From a virus, in IMG/VR virus record IMGVR_UViG_3300012985_000015, positions 1-46,295 of that record: a stretch of DNA of 46,295 nucleotides, one strand, 5' to 3'. Shown piece by piece: positions 14,713-44,618 of this stretch (its first letter is position 1; each line of letters begins with the position of its first letter). The translations under genes and the position numbers were made by a program. Under the pieces are notes generated by a model. It searched no databases. It was given only the letters and a program-made list of their open reading frames with translations, and was not told the DNA's origin.

Positions 14713-14789
14713 TGGCACGCTCGGGCGGACTTAAACCGCCAACCCCGAGCTTAGAAGGCCCGTGCTCTATTCGGTTGAGCTACAAGCGT
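14713..14789 (-). tRNA. tRNA-Arg (anticodon TCT)
   Basis: A full cloverleaf can be drawn: a 7-bp acceptor stem with one G-T pair, a D arm GCTC/GAGC, an anticodon stem with loop CTTCTAA, and a perfect 5-bp T stem around TTTAAGT. The discriminator is G and CCA is encoded. It reads AGA codons, rare in many high-GC hosts. It is the last of five tRNAs in the minus-strand order. Confidence 0.9.
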
Positions 14790-14795
14790 ATAAAA

Positions 14796-14871
14796 TGGTG
14801 CCGGCAGAAGGTCTCGAACCTCCGGCCTGATGCTTACAAAGCAACTGCTCTACCTACTGAGCTATGCCGGC
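14796..14871 (-). tRNA. tRNA-Thr (anticodon TGT)
   Basis: The acceptor stem GCCGGCA/TGCCGGC is perfect, the D stem is GCTC/GAGC, the anticodon loop is TTTGTAA, the T loop is TTCGAGA, and CCA is encoded. The anticodon stem has one T-T mismatch. It decodes ACA. Only six bases separate it from the tRNA-Arg gene. Confidence 0.92.
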
Positions 14872-14872
14872 G

Positions 14873-14944
14873 TCTGCATGGAGTGAATCGAACACCCTTA
14901 AGCTAGCTCCCAAAGCTAGTGGTCAACCAATGACCCACACGCAG
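14873..14944 (-). tRNA. tRNA-Pro (anticodon TGG)
   Basis: The acceptor CTGCGTG pairs with CATGCAG (one G-T). The D stem is GGTC/GACC, the anticodon stem CTAGC/GCTAG is perfect with loop TTTGGGA, and the T stem is GGGTG/CACTC. The discriminator is A, and the bases after it are CG, so CCA is not encoded and must be added. Its 3' end is one base from the tRNA-Thr start. Confidence 0.9.
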
Positions 14945-14952
14945 AAAAATTG

Positions 14953-15019
14953 AGCGCCACTAGGGACTCGAACCCTACTTGTCTGGCTTGGAAGGCCATG
15001 AGGGACCGTTCCGTAGCGC
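14953..15019 (-). tRNA. tRNA-Gly (anticodon TCC) with shortened D arm
   Basis: The acceptor GCGCTAC/GTGGCGC, T arm TAGGG/CCCTA and anticodon loop CTTCCAA are clear. Only 13 bases lie between acceptor and anticodon stems instead of about 18, so the D arm is reduced to roughly GGA, ACGG, TCC. The tRNA is about 67 nt and CCA is not fully encoded. It decodes GGA. It may be degraded or an unusual functional tRNA. Confidence 0.75.
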
Positions 15020-15028
15020 ATTTTGAAA

Positions 15029-15102
15029 CAGAGGCGGTAGGGCTCGAACCTACGCATGCAGGCTTCAAAGGCCCGTGCCTTAACCAGCTTGGCTACGCCT
15101 CG
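15029..15102 (-). tRNA. tRNA-Gln (anticodon TTG)
   Basis: The anticodon stem CGGGC/GCCTG carries loop CTTTGAA, giving TTG. The T stem GTAGG/CCTAC with TTCGAGC is perfect and the discriminator is G, as usual for Gln. The 1-72 pair is a mismatch, a known trait of tRNA-Gln acceptors. It decodes CAA. CCA is not encoded. Confidence 0.85.
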
Positions 15103-15150
15103 ACAATCTGAGCTGCCTTGGGTTAGTTCGGTGTGGCAGCTACCGAGGGC

Positions 15151-18930: not shown

Positions 18931-18963
18931 TACGTTGTCTCCTGCTGTCTACACACTACCTTT

Positions 18964-19083
18964 GGAATGCCCCTAGAAGCTCCTGAGAGCATCTCAGAGG
19001 CCATTACTCCCCCTACCCTAGGCTACCCTAGCGGGTAGGAACGAGAGGCTCTTAAATCGCTTCTACGGAGCTTTAAGAGGCAT
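18964..19083 (-). repeat. Leader element copy C (minus-strand sense)
   Basis: About 110 bases of palindrome-rich, CTAG-containing sequence between the promoter at 19121 and the gene at 18930. In the transcribed sense it shares a 14-mer (GTTCCTACCCGCTA) and the words GTAATGGCCTC and AGGAGCTTCTAG, in the same order, with the element at 35630-35748. It ends in GGCATTC close to the gene start, as in that copy. Confidence 0.7.
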
Positions 19084-19120
19084 GTCAAATATACTTTACA
19101 TCCGACACATCTATCCATAG

Positions 19121-19149
19121 AGTATAGAACATTTTCCTGTAGTTGTCAA
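19121..19149 (-). promoter_or_regulatory. Consensus-like sigma70 promoter (minus strand)
   Basis: TTGACA, a 17-base spacer and TATACT on the minus strand, overlapping the last codons of the HNH gene. It drives the operon beginning at 18930 through leader element C. One of the best host-type promoters in the window. Confidence 0.8.
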
Positions 19150-27759: not shown

Positions 27760-28182
27760 ATGACACACGATGAAAAGCTGAATTGGATGGCAATTTGGGC
27801 GGCCAAGAATGGCGTTGCGCTCGAATTGCAGGGTGAATGTGGATTTGGTAGGGAATGCGTTGGCATCATCAAACACGATGTCTACCCCGATTTTGAGCGA
27901 TACGACGAAAAATACAACGATGTTTGCTGGGCTCCTCCGGATGCCTACCACAAGCATGACTGTGTTGCTGTACTCGGGCGAGGAGAGGCGGCCGAGGGTC
28001 AGCTTTATGATTGGCTCAAGTGGTTTGATGACAATGGATATGTAGTAGAAGCCAAACGAAAGGAATGCAGGGATGACGGCCGCGCATTTGATGCCATTGA
28101 CTTTATTCTTGGTGCTCACAATAGCGTTAAAATGGTGAAGAAGGGTCAGATCTCTCTCCAGAACACCCCTACAAGCCTCTAG
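27760..28182 (+). CDS. Hypothetical protein (140 aa)
   Basis: 140 aa, with GGAG ribosome site. MTHDEKLNWMAIWAAKNGVA begins a helical domain, followed by ECGFGRECVGIIKHD with two Cys, then a Trp-rich acidic part (YDWLKWFDDNGYVV). The stop codon lies inside the leader element A. Not identified. Confidence 0.65.
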   Translation: MTHDEKLNWMAIWAAKNGVALELQGECGFGRECVGIIKHDVYPDFERYDEKYNDVCWAPPDAYHKHDCVAVLGRGEAAEGQLYDWLKWFDDNGYVVEAKRKECRDDGRAFDAIDFILGAHNSVKMVKKGQISLQNTPTSL

Positions 28183-28272
28183 GAAGCTCTAGGAGGCCAT
28201 TACAGCCCTAGGGAGCTACCTACGTAGCCCCTAGAAAGAGAACGCCTTAGAACGCTTCCTAGAGCGAAATAG
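28176..28272 (+). repeat. Leader element copy A
   Basis: About 97 bases of CTAG-rich, palindromic sequence, starting in the last codons of the preceding gene and ending about 50 bases before the next gene's ATG. It shares the 14-mer AGAACGCTTCCTAG and the ending TAGAGGCAT with element B. It also carries GAGGCCATTAC, the reverse complement of a motif in B and C, as expected for an element that folds on itself. Confidence 0.65.
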
Positions 28273-28319
28273 AGGCATACACAATAGACAGCCGAAAGGC
28301 GCCAACAGGAGAGAAAGTC

Positions 28320-28580
28320 ATGAAAGTGAGCAAGTGTGGTGGTGAGCAGACGACCCCTAAGGAACTGACGTGGGATGAGATGATTCTGAGTGAGGGAGTA
28401 TATCGCAGCACCGGCTCTTCTGGTACATCCTCGCGGTTTGTTGTCGTGACCAACTTCGGCCAGCCAAACACCGTATTGTGGTTTTGCGACGGTATGCTTG
28501 AAACGGCAGGCGGTGAATGGAAGAGGGGTAAGTTCATCCCTACCAACGAAACTGTCTGTTTTGAGCTGAAGCCTGCTTAA
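28320..28580 (+). CDS. 86-aa hypothetical protein
   Basis: 86 aa, preceded by ACAGGAGAGAAAGTC. The protein is beta-rich (SRFVVVTNFGQPNTVLWFCD) with acidic helix at the start (TPKELTWDEMILSEG). It follows leader element A directly, so it may be expressed under that element. Unknown. Confidence 0.65.
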   Translation: MKVSKCGGEQTTPKELTWDEMILSEGVYRSTGSSGTSSRFVVVTNFGQPNTVLWFCDGMLETAGGEWKRGKFIPTNETVCFELKPA

Positions 28581-28663
28581 ACGTCTTTGGCTTAGGGGCT
28601 TGCATGAGACAGCCGTAGGCGCTATAAAAGACTGAGGAAGAGGGGACTAAAAGGAGGCAATGT

Positions 28664-28918
28664 ATGCACTACACACTCATCCGTAACACCTCTGCCCCGG
28701 CTCGTAAGTCGGAGGCGCTTCCGCTGCGGAATCTGGCCTTTGCGAAGATTGTAGGAGGCCAGCTCGAAGGCGATGCCCTGTTCATCAAGGGCAAGAAGAC
28801 ACAGGACGTGTCCAGCGAGATTTACAAGCTGGCTGAAAGCATGGACGTCAAGGTGGCTCTTCGTTTCGATGCTGAGAACAATGGAGTGAAGGTGTTCCGC
28901 ATCAAGAAGATCAGTTGA
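28664..28918 (+). CDS. 84-aa hypothetical protein
   Basis: 84 aa with AAGGAGG upstream. MHYTLIRNTSAPARKSEALP precedes GQLEGDALFIKGKKTQDV and a compact end (VKVFRIKKIS). Stop codon overlaps the TTGACA of the next promoter. Small alpha/beta protein; unknown. Confidence 0.6.
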   Translation: MHYTLIRNTSAPARKSEALPLRNLAFAKIVGGQLEGDALFIKGKKTQDVSSEIYKLAESMDVKVALRFDAENNGVKVFRIKKIS

Positions 28919-28943
28919 CATTGCTGTAGCGTTGTGCTACAAT
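28915..28943 (+). promoter_or_regulatory. Strong sigma70 promoter for a non-coding RNA
   Basis: TTGACA, exactly 17 bases, TACAAT, then CTAAAGGC as the likely start area. The following 300 bases contain no credible gene. The same CTAAAGGC follows the promoter at 37693. Probably drives the structured RNA below. Confidence 0.8.
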
Positions 28944-28949
28944 TCTAAA

Positions 28950-29212
28950 GGCGTGGGCTCATTTGTCTTAGCACATGAATTTCCTCACACTCAGGAGAGG
29001 GTGTGTTGGCTAGGAGGAATGAGCCCACGAAGGCCGTGAGCGACGGAAAGCAGTTGAGTTGGGACTTACGTCCCGGTGAAGACACGCTAGGACAATTCAG
29101 TGGACGGCCCTTTGATGGCGGGGCTAAAACGGGTCTAATGGGACACAAGGGCGTTGCCTGACAGAGCTAGCAAGGAGTGCTATTCTGTTCCCGACAATAG
29201 GCCACTGAATAC
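28950..29212 (+). ncRNA. Structured non-coding RNA candidate (about 260 nt)
   Basis: Downstream of a near-consensus promoter and without a credible reading frame, the sequence folds into nested helices visible by eye. CGTGGGCTCATT (28952-28963) pairs perfectly with AATGAGCCCACG (29018-29029). CACAC/GTGTG lies inside that stem. CCGT/ACGG and GGGAC/GTCCC hairpins follow. ATTCAGTGG pairs with CCACTGAAT across about 100 bases, enclosing ACAGA-TAGCA-AAGGAG-TGCTA-TCTGT. It does not look like tmRNA, RNase P or a tRNA. Role unknown: regulatory RNA, decoy or ribozyme-like are all open. Confidence 0.65.
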
Positions 29213-29297
29213 CAACATGAACGAACAGCAACAAAAGACGGCGTAGCGGGCTATGTCCCAAAAGCCATCTAATGACCCCTTTTGCCCGGAGAAAGCA

Positions 29298-29639
29298 ATG
29301 GCTAAGTTTAAGATTGGTGATGTGGTACGCATTATCGCCCGCGACGATTGGGGTGAAGGAGAGGTGATCGCCCATAACGGCTGCGACCTGAAAATCATCT
29401 TCAACGATGGCAGCGTGGGCCTCTTCATTGAAGATGAATTACGATTGGTGGCACGTCCTGTAGATAAGGAGACAGAGCAGGCCGTTGATGAAGCTCTCGG
29501 GCTTGTCTCTGTCCAAATGAGGCTTCCTGTGGAATTGCATGAAGCTTTGAAGGCTATTGCTGAGGGGAAGGGATGGGTGCTTCCTGCGGTCATGCGCGAG
29601 GCTTTGTCGCTCTATGCTTATCAAGCCAACACCGCTTGA
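29298..29639 (+). CDS. 113-aa hypothetical protein with SH3/KOW-like start
   Basis: 113 aa from the ATG at 29298 with GGAG 6 bases upstream; an earlier in-frame ATG at 29253 lacks a good site. KFKIGDVVRIIARDDWGEGE is a small beta-barrel pattern, and the C-terminal half (MRLPVELHEALKAIAEGKGW) resembles a ribbon-helix-helix or helix region, so it may be DNA binding. It follows the RNA candidate. Confidence 0.6.
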   Translation: MAKFKIGDVVRIIARDDWGEGEVIAHNGCDLKIIFNDGSVGLFIEDELRLVARPVDKETEQAVDEALGLVSVQMRLPVELHEALKAIAEGKGWVLPAVMREALSLYAYQANTA

Positions 29640-32343: not shown

Positions 32344-33999
32344 ATGCGTAAGAAAACAGCATGCCCTAGCTGTGGTCCTAGGGATGTCAGTGGTAACAAC
32401 CTTCTTCTCTATGAAGACTCTGACACCCTCGGCTACTGCTTCCAATGCCAGAAAACCCTAAGCACAGAGAAAGCAATGCCCCCTCAGACGAAGAACAAGG
32501 ACGACAGCTTGGAATTGGCAGCCATTGCTTCGCTGCCTTTCCGTGTTTTGGAAGATCGCAACATCTCCAAGGAGACGTGCCAACGTTTTGGTGTTCGTGT
32601 CGCTCTGGATGAGCAGACGGCCTCTGAAGTGACAGACCATTATTACCCCTACTACCTGAATGGGGAGATTACGGGGTATAAGAAGCGTACGCTCCCGAAG
32701 CACTTCGCTGTTCTTGGGAAGGTGAAGTCGCTATTCGGTCAGGAACAGGCCAAGAAGAATGGCCGCATGCTGATTGTCGTGGAAGGGGAGATTGATGCTC
32801 TGTCTACGTGGGAAATCCTTCAGCAGAAGGGTAAGGCGTACAACGTCGTGAGCCTCCCCAACGGAGCTAATGAGGCAGGCCAACTAGACGCAGCAACGCG
32901 TTCCCAATTGGAATTCTTCACAGCCCACGAGCTTGTAGTGATTTGCCTTGATGAAGATGCTCCGGGACAAGCCACAGCGCAAGCTTTGGCCGAACTCCTC
33001 GTGAGCCAGTGCAAGGTGAAAATCATGCGCTTGGCCCGTAAGGATACGAACGAATACCTCAAGGCAGGCGACATCGACGGCTGGTGGAGTGCTCTCCTCG
33101 GGGCTAAGGACTATGTTCCTGAGGCCATCGAGAACGGCTCTGTGGACAATTTGGACGAACTAACTACGCCCACGCCTCCGGGTGTGTTCGTAGGCTGTCT
33201 GCCGCAGACGATGAAGAAGATGTATGGCCTTCGCCCCGGTGAAATCACGTTGATACTCGCCCCACCCGGTGCGGGAAAGACCACGCTTTGCCGTCAGATT
33301 ACGTACGACCTCCTGCGCAAGCAGGATGGACCCGTCTTCAACATGTTCTTGGAGGAAGGCAAGACCAAGACCCGACAAGGCATTGTGGCCTTGCATGCAG
33401 GGGTGGCCCTCAATCACTTCCGCCGCGATCCGAAGGTGGCTAAACGATCGGCAATCGAAGATGCCAACAACAACGTCCTCTCTAAGCTTGAGATGCTGAC
33501 AAACAATAAGGTGCTTCTCAATGACGAGGCATTGCTGAACAAGATCAATTTCTTTGCCAAGGCCAAGGGCTGTAAGTATGGCGTCTTGGATCACATCTCC
33601 TATGTCCTGTCCAGCCGAGACAGTAAGGATGAACGCAAGGAAGTGGATCAGTTGATGACGAAGCTGTCGCAGCTTGTCGAAGATCAGGGCCTCCATTTGA
33701 TTGTTGTCTCCCACATCAAGCGCAAGCAGCGAGACAGGGACAAGGCCGGAAGCCAGAAATACCCCTATTGGGAAATCCTAAGCCTTGACGACGCGCGCAG
33801 CAGTGGAGCATTCGAGCAGCTTTGCCACAATGTGATTGCACTAGAGCGACAGATTTGCGATCCTAGCGATGCCAGCCCAAAGCCGCTTAGCCGTACACGC
33901 ATCCTCAAGAACCGAGAGGAAAGTACGCTTGGCTTGGGTGACTACTTGATGTACAACACACAGAAGGGCGCTCTAGAACCTGTTGAAGCGGAGTATTGA
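32344..33999 (+). CDS. DNA primase-helicase, T7 gp4 type
   Basis: 551 aa. The N-terminal zinc site is CPSCGP and CFQCQK (residues about 6-39). A TOPRIM domain follows (LIVVEGEIDALST, then VVICLDEDAPGQATA, with acidic metal residues). The C-terminal RecA-type helicase has Walker A APPGAGKTTLCRQI, a motif around LDHISYVLSS, and IVVSHIKRKQ. Length and order match bifunctional phage primase-helicases of the T7 type. It unwinds DNA and makes primers at the replication fork. The start ATG has a weak ribosome site. Confidence 0.93.
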   Translation: MRKKTACPSCGPRDVSGNNLLLYEDSDTLGYCFQCQKTLSTEKAMPPQTKNKDDSLELAAIASLPFRVLEDRNISKETCQRFGVRVALDEQTASEVTDHYYPYYLNGEITGYKKRTLPKHFAVLGKVKSLFGQEQAKKNGRMLIVVEGEIDALSTWEILQQKGKAYNVVSLPNGANEAGQLDAATRSQLEFFTAHELVVICLDEDAPGQATAQALAELLVSQCKVKIMRLARKDTNEYLKAGDIDGWWSALLGAKDYVPEAIENGSVDNLDELTTPTPPGVFVGCLPQTMKKMYGLRPGEITLILAPPGAGKTTLCRQITYDLLRKQDGPVFNMFLEEGKTKTRQGIVALHAGVALNHFRRDPKVAKRSAIEDANNNVLSKLEMLTNNKVLLNDEALLNKINFFAKAKGCKYGVLDHISYVLSSRDSKDERKEVDQLMTKLSQLVEDQGLHLIVVSHIKRKQRDRDKAGSQKYPYWEILSLDDARSSGAFEQLCHNVIALERQICDPSDASPKPLSRTRILKNREESTLGLGDYLMYNTQKGALEPVEAEY

Positions 34000-35768: not shown

Positions 35769-36188
35769 ATGATTGAATACCGAAAAGGAAGTTTGTTTGA
35801 CGCCCCTGAAGACTTTGTTCTGGCCCATGCTTGTAATTGTCGGGGTGTTTGGGGGAGCGGGGTTGCCGTAGAATTCAAGAAAAGATTCCCGCTAGCCTAT
35901 CAGGACTACCGAGAGGAGTGCGCAAAAGGAATGGGCCCCGGATGGGCTAGTTTGTTTGGCAGGGTTGCTTGTCTGTACACTTCGTACGACTATGGCTCCC
36001 GAGTTAGTACGCCCTACCTCATCTTGCACGACACAGGCTCTGCCGTTGCTGATCTTCTCAGACAGACAGATGCTCCGATTGCTATGCCTAAGATCAACAG
36101 TGGCAAGTTTGGAGTGCCTTGGGAAGACACCGAAAAGGTGTTGAATCTGTTCAGTCGTACTTTCTACGTGTATACGAATGAAAGTTGA
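35769..36188 (+). CDS. Macro-domain protein
   Basis: 139 aa from the ATG at 35769; the longer frame runs through the leader element. The fold signature is IEYRKGSLFDAPEDFVLAHA, then CNCRGVWGSGVAVEFKKRFP and IAMPKINSGKFGVPWEDTEK, the ADP-ribose-binding loops of Poa1p-like macro domains (ADP-ribose-1''-phosphate phosphatase type). It overlaps the polymerase start by 11 bases. It would hydrolyse or bind ADP-ribose derivatives. It lies between the split DNA polymerase halves. Confidence 0.82.
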   Translation: MIEYRKGSLFDAPEDFVLAHACNCRGVWGSGVAVEFKKRFPLAYQDYREECAKGMGPGWASLFGRVACLYTSYDYGSRVSTPYLILHDTGSAVADLLRQTDAPIAMPKINSGKFGVPWEDTEKVLNLFSRTFYVYTNES

Positions 36189-37662
36189 TTGGGATGCTGC
36201 GCTGCGGCTTGCTCAGAAGAGCGCCTATCTCCAAGCAGCACAGGAAATCTCTGGCATTCGCTTTGACCAAGAGAAGGCTAAGGCGCTTCTGGAACGCATT
36301 CGCTGCCTGATGTCGGAGATTGAGGCGGACATTGAACCTAAGCTTCCCTCCCGTAAGCTCAAGAAGAGCGAGGAGAACGAATACACCCTGCCGGCCAAGC
36401 CCTTCAAGCAGGACGGGTCTTTCTCCCATCACATGTTGAAGTTTCTTGACCGGCACGGCATTGAGGCAGATGCGACTTCACGCACCCTGCAATGGCAGGG
36501 GCAGCCAGAAACGATTGTAGGAGGAAAACTCCTCCCAGCAACAAAGCCCATGACCCTGAGCAATCAGGATGATCTAAAGGACTGGCTGATTCAGGAAGGA
36601 TGGGAACCCTCGCTGTGGAACTTGAAGAAGGAGAATGGAAAGCCTGTCCGTGATCCGAAGACGAAGGCCACCATTCGCACCACACCCAAAATGCAGGAGA
36701 ACGGCAAACTCTGCCCCAATCTGGAGGAGATGAGCGGTCCTCTTGTAAAACAAGTGGTGAAGTGGTTGTCATGCCGGAATAGACATTCCGTGCTTGAAGG
36801 GTGGCTGTCCAATCCACGATTGGCTTTCGACGGCAAGCTTACGGCAGCGTCTAGCGGCATCACGAATACGTTCCGCCAGAAACATACTGTTGTAGCCAAC
36901 ATTCCCAAGAACAAGGAACATGTCCTGTTCGGCAAGGAGATGCGAGAACTTTTCATTGCCAATGAAGGGCAGGTGTTGGTTGGGTACGATGCTTCTAGCC
37001 TTGAGGACCGGATCAAAGGGCATTTCACAAGTAAATATGACTCGGGCGCCTACGCTGCCAAGATTCTGGCTCCGGGGTACGACCCCCATCAGGAAAATGC
37101 CGATCTGTGGGGGATTGACCGATCTATTGCAAAGAACGGAACGTACGCTCTTGGTTATTTCTGTGGTGTGGACAAACTAGCCACAACAATCAAGTGCAGC
37201 AAACAAGACGCAGCAACGCGCCACCAAGACTATTGGAAACTCAACAGTGCCCTGAAGCAACTAGACGAAGCCCTAGGAGCCCATTGGGAAGCCAACGGTA
37301 AGAAATACATCGTAGGCATCGACGGGAGGAAGGTGTTCTCTCGTCACCGCCACGGCCTTGTCAACCTCTTGATTCAGAGCACAGGATCAATCATCATGGA
37401 CTTCTCAGCAGCATGGATGGACAAAGCTCTTGGTGGGCTAGTTGTAATGGACGGAGAAGTGTGCTATAATGTCAAAGGACATGAGGTGTTTCGTGTAGGC
37501 TTCTTCCATGACGAATACATTTACTCTTGCGATCCTGAAGTGGCAGAATATGTAGCCGAACTAGGCAAGAAGTCGATTCAGAAGGCAGGGGAACATTTCA
37601 AGCTTCGCGTTCCGCTCATGTCGGAAGCCAAAATCAGCACTGATTGGAGTAAGATTCACTGA
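36178..37662 (+). CDS. DNA polymerase, family A (T7 type), polymerase domain only
   Basis: 494 aa. Motif A is VGYDASSLEDRIKGHF (catalytic Asp about residue 270). Motif B is RSIAKNGTYALGYFCG with the Arg, Lys and Tyr of T7 Pol (about residues 316-330). Motif C is FFHDEYIYSC with the His-Asp pair (about residue 444). The N-terminus begins at the thumb, and the exonuclease domain is missing: it is a separate gene at 34255. All catalytic residues are present, so it should be active. It overlaps the macro-domain gene. Confidence 0.92.
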   Translation: MKVDWDAALRLAQKSAYLQAAQEISGIRFDQEKAKALLERIRCLMSEIEADIEPKLPSRKLKKSEENEYTLPAKPFKQDGSFSHHMLKFLDRHGIEADATSRTLQWQGQPETIVGGKLLPATKPMTLSNQDDLKDWLIQEGWEPSLWNLKKENGKPVRDPKTKATIRTTPKMQENGKLCPNLEEMSGPLVKQVVKWLSCRNRHSVLEGWLSNPRLAFDGKLTAASSGITNTFRQKHTVVANIPKNKEHVLFGKEMRELFIANEGQVLVGYDASSLEDRIKGHFTSKYDSGAYAAKILAPGYDPHQENADLWGIDRSIAKNGTYALGYFCGVDKLATTIKCSKQDAATRHQDYWKLNSALKQLDEALGAHWEANGKKYIVGIDGRKVFSRHRHGLVNLLIQSTGSIIMDFSAAWMDKALGGLVVMDGEVCYNVKGHEVFRVGFFHDEYIYSCDPEVAEYVAELGKKSIQKAGEHFKLRVPLMSEAKISTDWSKIH

Positions 37663-37692: not shown

Positions 37693-37721
37693 TTGACACC
37701 CACCAACATCTAGGCTATACT
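37693..37721 (+). promoter_or_regulatory. Sigma70 promoter with near-perfect hexamers
   Basis: TTGACA, 17 bases, TATACT, then CTAAAGGC. It lies just downstream of the polymerase and upstream of the structured leader and the coiled-coil gene. The start-site neighbourhood matches that of the 28915 promoter. Confidence 0.8.
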
Positions 37722-38338: not shown

Positions 38339-38657
38339 TCCCGTTCAACATTAGCCAACACACAGAGTAAACAACGAGGATACACTGGACGTCGCCGGAC
38401 GACTCTGGCTCCAAACTGCATGGTATGCACAGACCCGTTAAGTCTGTCGTGGTTCGACCCCACACAAACTCTAAAGGTTGAAGGCTCAAGGCTGAAGGAA
38501 GCAAGGGTTAAGACGTTCAAGGTAGCAAGAGGTAAGGTAGGAAGGATAAACACGGCGTCGTAGTCGTGAAATCCGGGTTAAGAGCTGAGGTTCTAGTGCC
38601 TCATCGTTCTCTTCCGGCTTCCTGTTTGGGTGGCTAATCTTTCTTTCGAGGAAATGT
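38339..38657 (+). other. Non-coding region with tRNA-like element and purine-rich tract
   Basis: About 320 bases without a gene. It begins with GAGGATACACTG, repeated from 32306, then a tRNA-like fold (38408-38470), then a G/A-rich stretch (38470-38560) that includes repeated AAGG/GGTA words, and a TGAGG/CCTCA hairpin near 38586. A promoter was not convincingly seen. Purpose unknown. Confidence 0.5.
38408..38470 (+). ncRNA. tRNA-like element, possible degenerate tRNA-Asn
   Basis: TGCA-TGGTA-TGCA makes a D arm. CAGAC/GTCTG with loop CCGTTAA makes an anticodon arm reading GTT (Asn), but position 33 is C rather than T. A T arm GTGG/CCAC with TTCGACC follows. The acceptor stem cannot be formed and the variable region is only one base, so it is probably not an active tRNA. 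Confidence 0.4.
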
Positions 38658-41959: not shown

Positions 41960-42073
41960 ATGTTCACGGCCGTATGTTTTGTAGTGGCCGTATACGTAGC
42001 CTACCGGGGAGGTTTCTCGGTGGGCTATGTTTTTGGATATGACGATGGAATCAATGACGGGAGGAAACGATGA
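41960..42073 (+). CDS. 37-aa membrane peptide
   Basis: 37 aa, FTAVCFVVAVYVAYRGGFSV forms a membrane segment, then GYDDGINDGRKR. Coupled to the ligase start (ATGA). Unknown. Confidence 0.5.
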   Translation: MFTAVCFVVAVYVAYRGGFSVGYVFGYDDGINDGRKR

Positions 42074-42609
42074 AAGAATTTGAGGCATTCAAGAAGATTC
42101 CTCGCCTAAGCCGAGAAATTGTCATTACCGAGAAGATTGATGGTACCAATGCGTCCATCTATATCGGAGAGGATGGCGAATTTCTTGTTGGCTCGCGTAC
42201 GCGATGGATTACGCCAGAAAATGACAACTACGGCTTTGCTAATTGGGCCTACGCAAATGAAGAGGAATTGCGTAAGCTTGGGACGGGGCATCACTTTGGT
42301 GAATGGTGGGGGCAGGGCATTCAACGCAACTATTCCCGTGTGGGAAAGATTTTCAGCTTGTTCAACACTACACGCTGGAAGGACGCTGCTGACCTCCCGC
42401 CTTGCTGCTCTGTCGTACCCGAGCTATATCGTGGCGATTTTGACACCAACGCCATCCGCGGCGTGTTGAAAGAGCTTGAGCGAGACGGCTCCAAGGCAGC
42501 GCCGGGCTTCATGAAGCCAGAAGGCATCATCATTTTCCACACAGCGGGCAATCTGATGTTCAAAAAGACTCTGGAGAAAGACCACGAACCGAAAGGACAG
42601 CAGGCATGA
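42070..42609 (+). CDS. RNA-ligase-like nucleotidyltransferase
   Basis: 179 aa, with GGAGG upstream. ITEKIDGTNASIYIG gives the KxDG nucleotidyl-lysine motif (Lys about 22). EFLVGSRTRWI is motif Ia-like, LGTGHHFGEWWGQGI carries a motif III/IIIa-like segment, PEGIIIFH is motif IV and NLMFKKTLEKD motif V. The protein is short, consisting only of the nucleotidyltransferase domain, close to Rnl2-type RNA ligases. It may repair cleaved tRNA or nicked nucleic acid. A DNA ligase role is possible but less likely because the OB domain is absent. Confidence 0.78.
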   Translation: MKEFEAFKKIPRLSREIVITEKIDGTNASIYIGEDGEFLVGSRTRWITPENDNYGFANWAYANEEELRKLGTGHHFGEWWGQGIQRNYSRVGKIFSLFNTTRWKDAADLPPCCSVVPELYRGDFDTNAIRGVLKELERDGSKAAPGFMKPEGIIIFHTAGNLMFKKTLEKDHEPKGQQA

Positions 42610-42941: not shown

Positions 42942-44618
42942 TTGGAAGGAACGTTCAGGACTCATATTGCAGAGTCGATCTTTTACAACAAATACGCACA
43001 GGGCCGCAACGATACATGGAAGAACCTTGCCATCCGCCTCGTGGATGATGTCTGCGGGCGAATGGGAGGGGAGGCCCGCCAAACCCTTCTTTCAACGGAG
43101 GACATGAAAGACCTCACCAAATTCATCGTGGACATGAAGTTCATTCCGGGCGGTCGCTATCTCTACTATGCTGGCAGACCACTTCATGCTTGGAACAATT
43201 GTTACCTTTTGAAGGGAGAGGAGGACACAAGGGAAGAGTGGGGAAACATCCTAAAGCGAGCTAGTGACTGCTTGATGAGCGGCGGGGGCATCGGCGTAGA
43301 CTACTCGGTGTTTCGTCCTCGCGGAGCTGCCTTGAAGCGAACAGGCGGTCAAAGCAGCGGGCCTCTGCCGCTGATGAATTCGGTGAACGAAGTAGGTCGA
43401 AATGTTATGCAGGGCGGCTCCCGTCGCAGCGCGATCTACGCATCACTTAATTGGCAGCACGAAGACGCTTCTGCATTTCTTGGCATGAAGAATTGGGCTG
43501 AAATGCCCATTGGTAATGCTACGAAGGAAGATGGTACTCCGTACACCATTTGGGATGCAAAACAGGCCGATTTTAACTATCGTGCTCCTTTGGACATGAC
43601 CAACGTCAGTCTGAACTACGACGACGCTTGGCTTCACAACTCCCAACGGCATTCTGATGCAACATTCCTCAGAAACGTCCGGCAGGCGATGGAAACCGGG
43701 GAGCCGGGATTCAGTTTCAACTTCGGAGACAAACAATACGAAACTCTTCGTAACGCATGTACAGAGGTCACTAGCGAGGATGACAGTGATGTTTGTAACC
43801 TCGGCTCTATCAATCTCGGGAACATCGAGACGCCGGAGGAATTGAAGCGTGTTGTTGAACTGGCTGCGAAGTTTCTCGTTTGCGGTACTATTCGCGCCGA
43901 CCTACCTTACAAGAAGGTGTATGATGTTCGAGAAAAGAATCGTCGGCTCGGTCTTGGACTGATGGGCATCCATGAGTGGCTTCTGAAGCGGGGATCAAAG
44001 TACGAAGTGACTGAAGAGCTTCATAGGTGGCTTAGTGTTTATCGGGACGAATCTGTGAGGGCAGCAAACGAGCACTGTGACCGCTTCTTTCTGTCCCGTC
44101 CGAAAGCCTATAGGTCCATTGCTCCTACGGGCACAATTGGAATGCTGGCTTCCACGACGACAGGTATTGAACCGCTCTTCGCAGTCGCCTACAAGCGACG
44201 CTATCTGAAAGATGGCACGCGTTGGCACTACGAATATGTAGTGGATGCTACGGCCGATTTGCTCATCAAACAACTTGGCATCAACCCGTTGGACATTGAC
44301 AGCGCTTACAAGATGGCCTCGGATTTTGAACGTCGCATCAAGTTCCAAGCCGATGTACAAGACTACGTAGACATGGCCATTAGTTCTACGATCAATCTCC
44401 CTGCTTGGGGAACAAAGCTGAATAACGAAGACAAGGTGGAAGACTTCGCTAAAACGCTAAGCGCATATGCCCCGCGCCTTCGAGGTTTCACGGCTTACCC
44501 AGACGGATCACGCGGTGGCCAGCCACTTATCGAAGTGGACTATGACACAGCCGTAGCACATAAGGGTGTTGTATATGAAGAACACAGTAGTTGTGCCGGC
44601 GGCGTGTGTGGCATTTGA
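42942..44618 (+). CDS. nrdJ: Adenosylcobalamin-dependent (class II) ribonucleotide reductase
   Basis: 558 aa from a TTG with AGGAGAAAGG upstream. WNNCYLLKG holds the first redox Cys, SGGGIGVDYSVFRP is a substrate-loop signature, GGSRRSAIYASL follows, and the catalytic NACTEV motif (N-x-C-x-E) is at about residue 270, with DVCNLGSINLGNI supplying the second redox Cys. APTGTIGMLASTTTGIEP is conserved in these enzymes. The C-terminal CAGGVCGI has the Cys pair that accepts reducing equivalents. It makes deoxynucleotides. No separate small subunit or flavodoxin gene is near, as expected for class II. Confidence 0.9.
   Translation: MEGTFRTHIAESIFYNKYAQGRNDTWKNLAIRLVDDVCGRMGGEARQTLLSTEDMKDLTKFIVDMKFIPGGRYLYYAGRPLHAWNNCYLLKGEEDTREEWGNILKRASDCLMSGGGIGVDYSVFRPRGAALKRTGGQSSGPLPLMNSVNEVGRNVMQGGSRRSAIYASLNWQHEDASAFLGMKNWAEMPIGNATKEDGTPYTIWDAKQADFNYRAPLDMTNVSLNYDDAWLHNSQRHSDATFLRNVRQAMETGEPGFSFNFGDKQYETLRNACTEVTSEDDSDVCNLGSINLGNIETPEELKRVVELAAKFLVCGTIRADLPYKKVYDVREKNRRLGLGLMGIHEWLLKRGSKYEVTEELHRWLSVYRDESVRAANEHCDRFFLSRPKAYRSIAPTGTIGMLASTTTGIEPLFAVAYKRRYLKDGTRWHYEYVVDATADLLIKQLGINPLDIDSAYKMASDFERRIKFQADVQDYVDMAISSTINLPAWGTKLNNEDKVEDFAKTLSAYAPRLRGFTAYPDGSRGGQPLIEVDYDTAVAHKGVVYEEHSSCAGGVCGI

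Follow-up and report, generated by a model that had tools for sequence, protein, structure and literature searches.

In published passages of PMC5371410, RNase III targets are described in phages lambda, T7 and T3, together with occlusion of the ribosome site in lambda cIII, and the stabilization of mRNA by 5'-terminal stem-loops appears among the reference titles of PMC3997798. Non-coding RNAs from intergenic spaces are documented for phage PhiKZ in sections of PMC8545117, and phage small RNAs have been reviewed, as portions of PMC12197685 set out. Here we describe a promoter and the structured RNA downstream of it in a bacterial virus, using as our window the entire stretch of DNA analysed, a virus record of 46,295 bases.

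The RNase III sites of the T7 and T3 early messages are long irregular stems in non-coding spacers of phage operons that host polymerase transcribes, and the leader at this locus is like them in these respects; its stem, however, lies at the very 5' end, adjoining the promoter, and is a candidate site only. With the lambda N and cIII leaders, which are subject to RNase III-dependent control, it shares a strong phage promoter and, behind it, a long leader with structure, but its first domain (domain 1) does not extend to 29298, the next clear gene, and does not include that gene's ribosome site. As with 5'-terminal stem-loops of the E. coli papA type, the hairpin starts no more than a few bases from the expected transcription start; here it is longer, and about 270 further bases separate it from that gene. 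Decoy RNAs of the CsrB/RsmZ type resemble the leader in displaying AGGA in two apical loops, but the leader has few such sites, is not enriched in GGA, matches no family and has no terminator.

At this locus a near-consensus host-type promoter is followed by a very stable hairpin, which begins at most a few bases from the expected start. The feature is most likely a real, orphan, structured phage leader whose function is predicted. We hypothesize, at roughly even chances, that the promoter and the approximately 350 nt behind it form the 5' leader of a rightward operon leading into replication genes (29298 onward), in which the hairpin protects the message and/or is cut by RNase III. If true, this would be another phage that sets the life of its replication message by a promoter-proximal hairpin, in a little-known phage group; the locus would attract wide interest only should the RNA turn out to be discrete and trans-acting.

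Gene layout of the phage

The phage is isolated and has T7-like replication genes, which lie on the plus strand of the right arm; the left arm carries portal-like, major head protein, terminase and endolysin genes on the minus strand (Table 1). Megablast of 24 kb of the window against 50,697 phage records gave no match, the closest primase of a named phage is 34.6% identical, and the primase, used among the neighbouring proteins to look for relatives, reached one locus, at 37%. Scanning with a two-sequence DNA-polymerase alignment yielded 80 loci, of which a near group of 26 (L029-L054; polymerase identity 39-50%) served as relatives, and the other 54 were left out of the leader and handle searches and kept in the blastn/nhmmer comparison, which took in all 80. 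The phage group is little known, and its replication proteins share no more than about 50% identity with those of the relatives found.

Table 1. Features of the leader region and the genes around it
Feature	Position	Strand	Detail
Left-arm genes: portal-like, major head protein, terminase, endolysin		-	
Upstream small gene, 84 aa	28664-28918	+	ORF and codon score
Sigma-70-type promoter TTGACA-17-TACAAT, extended -10	28915-28943	+	
Perfect dyad TGTAGC-N5-GCTACA inside promoter, possible operator	28925-28941		
CTAAAGGC beside presumed transcription start	28945-28952	+	common to promoter at 37693
Domain 1, 5'-terminal hairpin	28952-29029	+	13 bp, G.G mismatch, 7 bp, 13/3 internal loop, 7-bp inner hairpin
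AGGAGA apical loop of domain 1	28993-28998	+	could be Shine-Dalgarno for frame 29003/29006
Candidate small ORF, 52 codons	29003-29161	+	GTG; or TTG at 29006
5-bp hairpin GGGAC-UUAC-GUCCC	29061-29074	+	pairing probability 0.57
9-bp long-range helix, 5' arm ATTCAGTGG	29095-29103	+	
12-bp hairpin with AGGAG loop (29173-29177)	29160-29189	+	pairing probability 0.87-0.91
9-bp long-range helix, 3' arm CCACTGAAT	29202-29210	+	
Possible 6-bp stem AGCCAT/ATGGCT enclosing 29298 start codon	29263-29303	+	sequence
First clear operon gene, 113 aa	29298-29639	+	GGAG before ATG
DnaB-type primase/helicase	32344-33999	+	right arm
Family A DNA polymerase	36178-37662	+	right arm
RNA ligase	42070-42609	+	right arm
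Ribonucleotide reductase	42942-44618	+	right arm

Other features of the record are noted here for completeness. The ribonucleotide reductase is 78% identical to the copy in L043, against only about 41-50% for polymerase and primase, a contrast that might reflect gene exchange, and the RNA ligase is 59% identical to a gene of L037. Five tRNA genes (Arg, Thr, Pro, Gly, Gln) are clustered on the minus strand (14713-15103), and a tRNA-like piece was seen by eye on the plus strand at about 38415-38465, with a 6-bp anticodon-type stem, the loop CCGTTAA and a T-arm-like GTGG-TTCGACC-CCAC; it has no acceptor stem, and ARAGORN and Rfam give no call there.

Promoter and 5'-terminal hairpin

The promoter at 28915, first picked out in a sequence-only reading of this DNA, is indeed present: it matches 11 of 12 consensus bases, with a 17-base spacer and TG ahead of the -10 box, and its -35 box is overlapped by the stop codon of the 84-aa gene. 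Three sites reach 11/12 in the entire window (28915 and 37693 on the plus strand, 19149 on the minus strand). The promoters at 28915 and 37693 both carry CTAAAGGC right after the -10 box, and because the sequence is common to the two, both sites are supported as real phage starts; the 37693 promoter likewise lies upstream of same-strand genes. Random 29-mers drawn from the window hold a dyad of the kind found inside the 28915 promoter in 460 of 20,000 cases, as does one of six promoter-like sites, so this one is taken as suggestive only; it could be an operator.

Domain 1 is closed, as the same reading had stated, by a perfect 12-bp helix (28952-28963 with 29018-29029), which is lengthened by a U.G pair, a G.G mismatch and 7 further pairs. 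Mean pairing probability in its two outer helices is 0.98-0.99, the helices of the domain persist in all eight growing transcript lengths that were folded, and the stretches 28950-29030 and 28950-29031 have z values of -6.2 and -6.4 relative to dinucleotide shuffles. An inverted repeat equal to the 12-bp one appeared in none of 300 shuffles of the 263-nt region. Among 1,232 overlapping 150-base windows from both strands (mean z -0.30, sd 1.2), that of domain 1 ranks second, at z -5.43. Stems of 21 pairs with at most one mismatch number two in the window, domain 1 and another within a collagen-like repeat gene, and window-length Markov controls held one such stem in 4 of 40 cases and none in the other 36. 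Folding is stronger on the plus strand than on the minus strand, both for domain 1 (-44.2 vs -32.6 kcal/mol) and for the whole (-104 vs -80.8 kcal/mol); the minus strand, moreover, offers only a 9/12 promoter-like site, and an antisense reading was rejected on these grounds.

How this hairpin compares with the RNA downstream of other promoters was assessed at 166 promoter-like sites in the window and the 26 related loci. The most structured RNA of all follows 28915 (z -7.63; the next value is -3.15), while the sites as a group match random control places: z is below -3 at 3 of 166 sites and 7 of 332 controls, and the means are -0.30 and -0.26. Since 28915 tops the sites and the group is no different from controls, domain 1 is specific to this place, and the same counts rule out structured leaders as a rule of the phage group. 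That the structure arose by chance in an ordinary spacer, in which the promoter alone matters, would be in keeping with these counts, by which structure is not tied to promoters generally, and with the lack of any conservation found; we nevertheless regard it as improbable, as domain 1, at z -6.2 to -7.6, falls far outside the controls and its 12-bp repeat was never equalled in shuffles. Against the leader reading, for its part, stand the other five of the six promoter-like sites in the window, where the 100 nt that follow lack strong structure (z -2.44 to -0.07), so that a structured leader is no rule within this phage either.

According to the leader reading, transcription would start from the 28915 promoter at about 28950, and the hairpin would begin 2-3 bases from that point. 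Two stacked stems, of about 21 bp with one mismatch, would shield the 5' end from single-strand nucleases, and/or host RNase III would cut them, and by either route the hairpin would set the lifetime of the operon message. A hairpin so close to the start, and offering roughly two duplex turns, is consistent with protection of the 5' end and/or with an RNase III site: the approximately two helical turns of an RNase III site in a message spacer are found here as 13 bp, the G.G mismatch and 7 bp stacked together, an arrangement rare in controls.

Middle and second half of the leader

The full 268 nt have z -4.2, and none of 200 shuffles was as stable. Beyond domain 1 the structure is weaker: the middle (29031-29158) folds no better than its shuffles (z -0.34), 29159-29212 has z -1.09 and 29213-29297 has z +0.66. 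The 9-bp long-range helix, which had been proposed to enclose a second domain, is present, and the stretch it encloses (29094-29212) has z about -3.1 (-3.06), but repeats of at least 9 bp occurred in 13 of 300 shuffles. The helix pairs with a mean probability of 0.73 when the 263 nt are folded; in the full leader 5 of its pairs exceed 0.5, with a mean of 0.52. Only moderate structure is seen in the second half of the leader, and its second domain had been overrated; the length of the leader, together with this modest folding, is also a point against the leader reading. A loop exposing AAGGAG, another feature of the earlier description, was recovered as AGGAG at 29173-29177, with an unpaired probability of 0.99-1.0.

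AGGA thus stands in two apical loops (AGGAGA in domain 1 and AGGAG), a situation seen in 4 of 400 shuffles, and the leader holds 5 copies of AGGA against 1.7 expected. From these figures one might suppose a decoy RNA, whose AGGAG loops would sequester either a CsrA/RsmA-type RNA-binding protein of the host or the 16S anti-Shine-Dalgarno. The motif, however, was picked after the fold had been seen, GGA is near expectation (9 vs 6.8), and two GGA loops arise in 58 of 400 shuffles. CsrB/RsmX-type RNAs have many GGA loops above expectation and a terminator of their own; here only two loops show AGGA, no terminator-like site follows the structure before 29621, Rfam returned no match of that type and the phage has no csrA gene. 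Such a decoy is very improbable.

Whether the leader codes for protein is a closer matter. The sequence-only reading had counted about 260 bases with no credible gene, which proves borderline: the frame at 29003-29161 (mean codon score 0.093) scores as high as only 1.8% of off-frame segments, and so above 98% of them, yet in 2,000 shuffles of the spacer a frame of equal total score turned up 115 times. True gene segments of 52 codons score as low in 7.7% of cases, which puts the frame at about their 8th percentile. On this basis the leader may hold a gene of 51-52 aa (GTG 29003 or TTG 29006, stop 29159-29161), with the AGGAGA loop as its Shine-Dalgarno and the hairpin as a translational control element; AGGAG lies 5-8 nt ahead of the GTG/TTG, and the robust structure precedes the frame and is not inside it. 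Set against this, a frame of equal length occurs in 717 of the 2,000 shuffles, G occupies 18 of 53 second codon positions as compared with 19% in genes, and the start is partly buried in the hairpin stem. Homologues were found neither among named phages (best E 1) nor in viral contigs, Pfam at E <= 1 gave a single sub-threshold match at 0.2 and PHROGs at E <= 10 gave none, and the single-sequence model has no secondary structure (pLDDT 59.9, pTM 0.14). We therefore hold this small gene to be rather unlikely. It bears on occlusion of the lambda cIII type in that it is the only candidate ORF in domain 1, which stops short of 29298, where the separate 6-bp stem may hold the start codon; in a fold extended to 29330 that codon is mostly paired.

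Probable read-through, relatives and other structured spacers

Gene 29298 is the next gene with a ribosome site after the leader. On the plus strand no terminator-like site was found from 28000 to 29620, the first lying at 29621, and a search by eye for boxA, as in phage antitermination RNAs of the put/nut type that let polymerase pass over later terminators, gave nothing clear. Because there is no terminator until 29621 and the next good ribosome site is at 29298, the leader is placed at about 350 nt, and in the leader reading transcription would then run on into 29298, towards the primase. The product of this gene shows, by eye only, an SH3-like start and a ribbon-helix-helix-like end; Pfam gave CopG_antitoxin (E 0.096) and DUF3553 (E 0.041), both below the cut-off, and its structure model is of low confidence. 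Conceivably this product could bind the dyad in the 28915 promoter, and the dyad would then perhaps be its operator in a self-limiting operon.

The lack of a terminator also bears on what had originally been proposed, a promoter feeding a structured non-coding RNA: the promoter and the structured start are supported, but the free-standing RNA is not, given gene 29298 and a middle resembling shuffles. A discrete, trans-acting RNA of some 260 nt, its end made near 29212 by processing or by Rho, would be in line with the strong promoter of its own, the z values of the full 268 nt and of the second domain, and the intergenic RNAs documented for PhiKZ (sections of PMC8545117). But besides the absent terminator it must contend with the values near zero at 29031-29158 and 29213-29297, a 9-bp helix that shuffles can equal and the failure to find a relative, and we consider it unlikely.

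Known RNA families do not account for the leader, in agreement with the initial impression that it resembles none of tRNA, tmRNA, 6S and RNase P. Rfam 15 covariance models gave no match for 28900-29300 at gathering thresholds (tRNA, tmRNA, 6S, RNase P, SRP, group I and phage RNAs included) and none at the leader when the whole window was searched at E <= 3; local searches at E <= 10 brought up chance microRNA and snoRNA models only, and no tRNA or tmRNA was called at the site. Compared with phages, plasmids and E. coli genomes, the leader DNA has no relative, two plasmid matches being chance ones of 22 and 32 bases. Three 16-base words shared with viral contigs (3, 19 and 3 stretches) and one 18-base word shared with bacterial genomes (1 stretch) proved to be chance matches once the flanks were compared.

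Searches closer to the phage gave the same result. The blastn/nhmmer comparison with all 80 polymerase loci revealed no relative of the leader, and in none of the 26 related records was the leader RNA, searched for by DNA, or the 29298 protein found. The 84-aa product has no family match, and neither it nor a neighbouring 128-aa protein found relatives in viral contigs. The covariance search that had been suggested as a check was run on relatives with models of domain 1 (R1) and of 29034-29212 (R2), each effectively a single sequence and so of small reach: among 27 records both matched the window itself only, and with filters off R1 reached 15.4 bits (E 0.12) at its next best place, which lay in another part of the window. 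Literature searches found no paper that could be linked to the element. The absence of relatives, and so of covariation evidence, counts against the leader reading. It also removes the footing of a new phage RNA class, a claim that one sequence without a relative cannot carry: an independent conserved class would have homologues with covarying helices, and the collections searched yielded none. A free-standing RNA of an undescribed class, made early in infection from its own strong promoter, with AGGAG loops that bind ribosomes or an AGGA-reading protein and a stabilizing 5' hairpin, is in our estimation quite improbable.

Long intergenic hairpins occur elsewhere among the loci. The related phages L002 (2526-2601) and L029 (719-801) have one in common, its 3' arm identical at 34 of 38 positions and its stem top different; it was not found in the window. 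Homology of domain 1 to it was considered, as both have GGG(T)TGTG...GGCTAG, and the alignment gives no support. That just two related contigs show a conserved intergenic hairpin of comparable kind, and at a different place, is a further point against the leader reading, while in its favour other spacers of this phage are structured too. One, on the plus strand 0.7 kb upstream (28183-28319), has 12-bp arms GCTCTAGGAGGC/GCTTCCTAGAGC around an inner hairpin (z -4.0). The other, on the minus strand (18931-19145; z -4.7), comes directly after the strong leftward promoter at 19149, and its first 100 nt alone have z -2.4.
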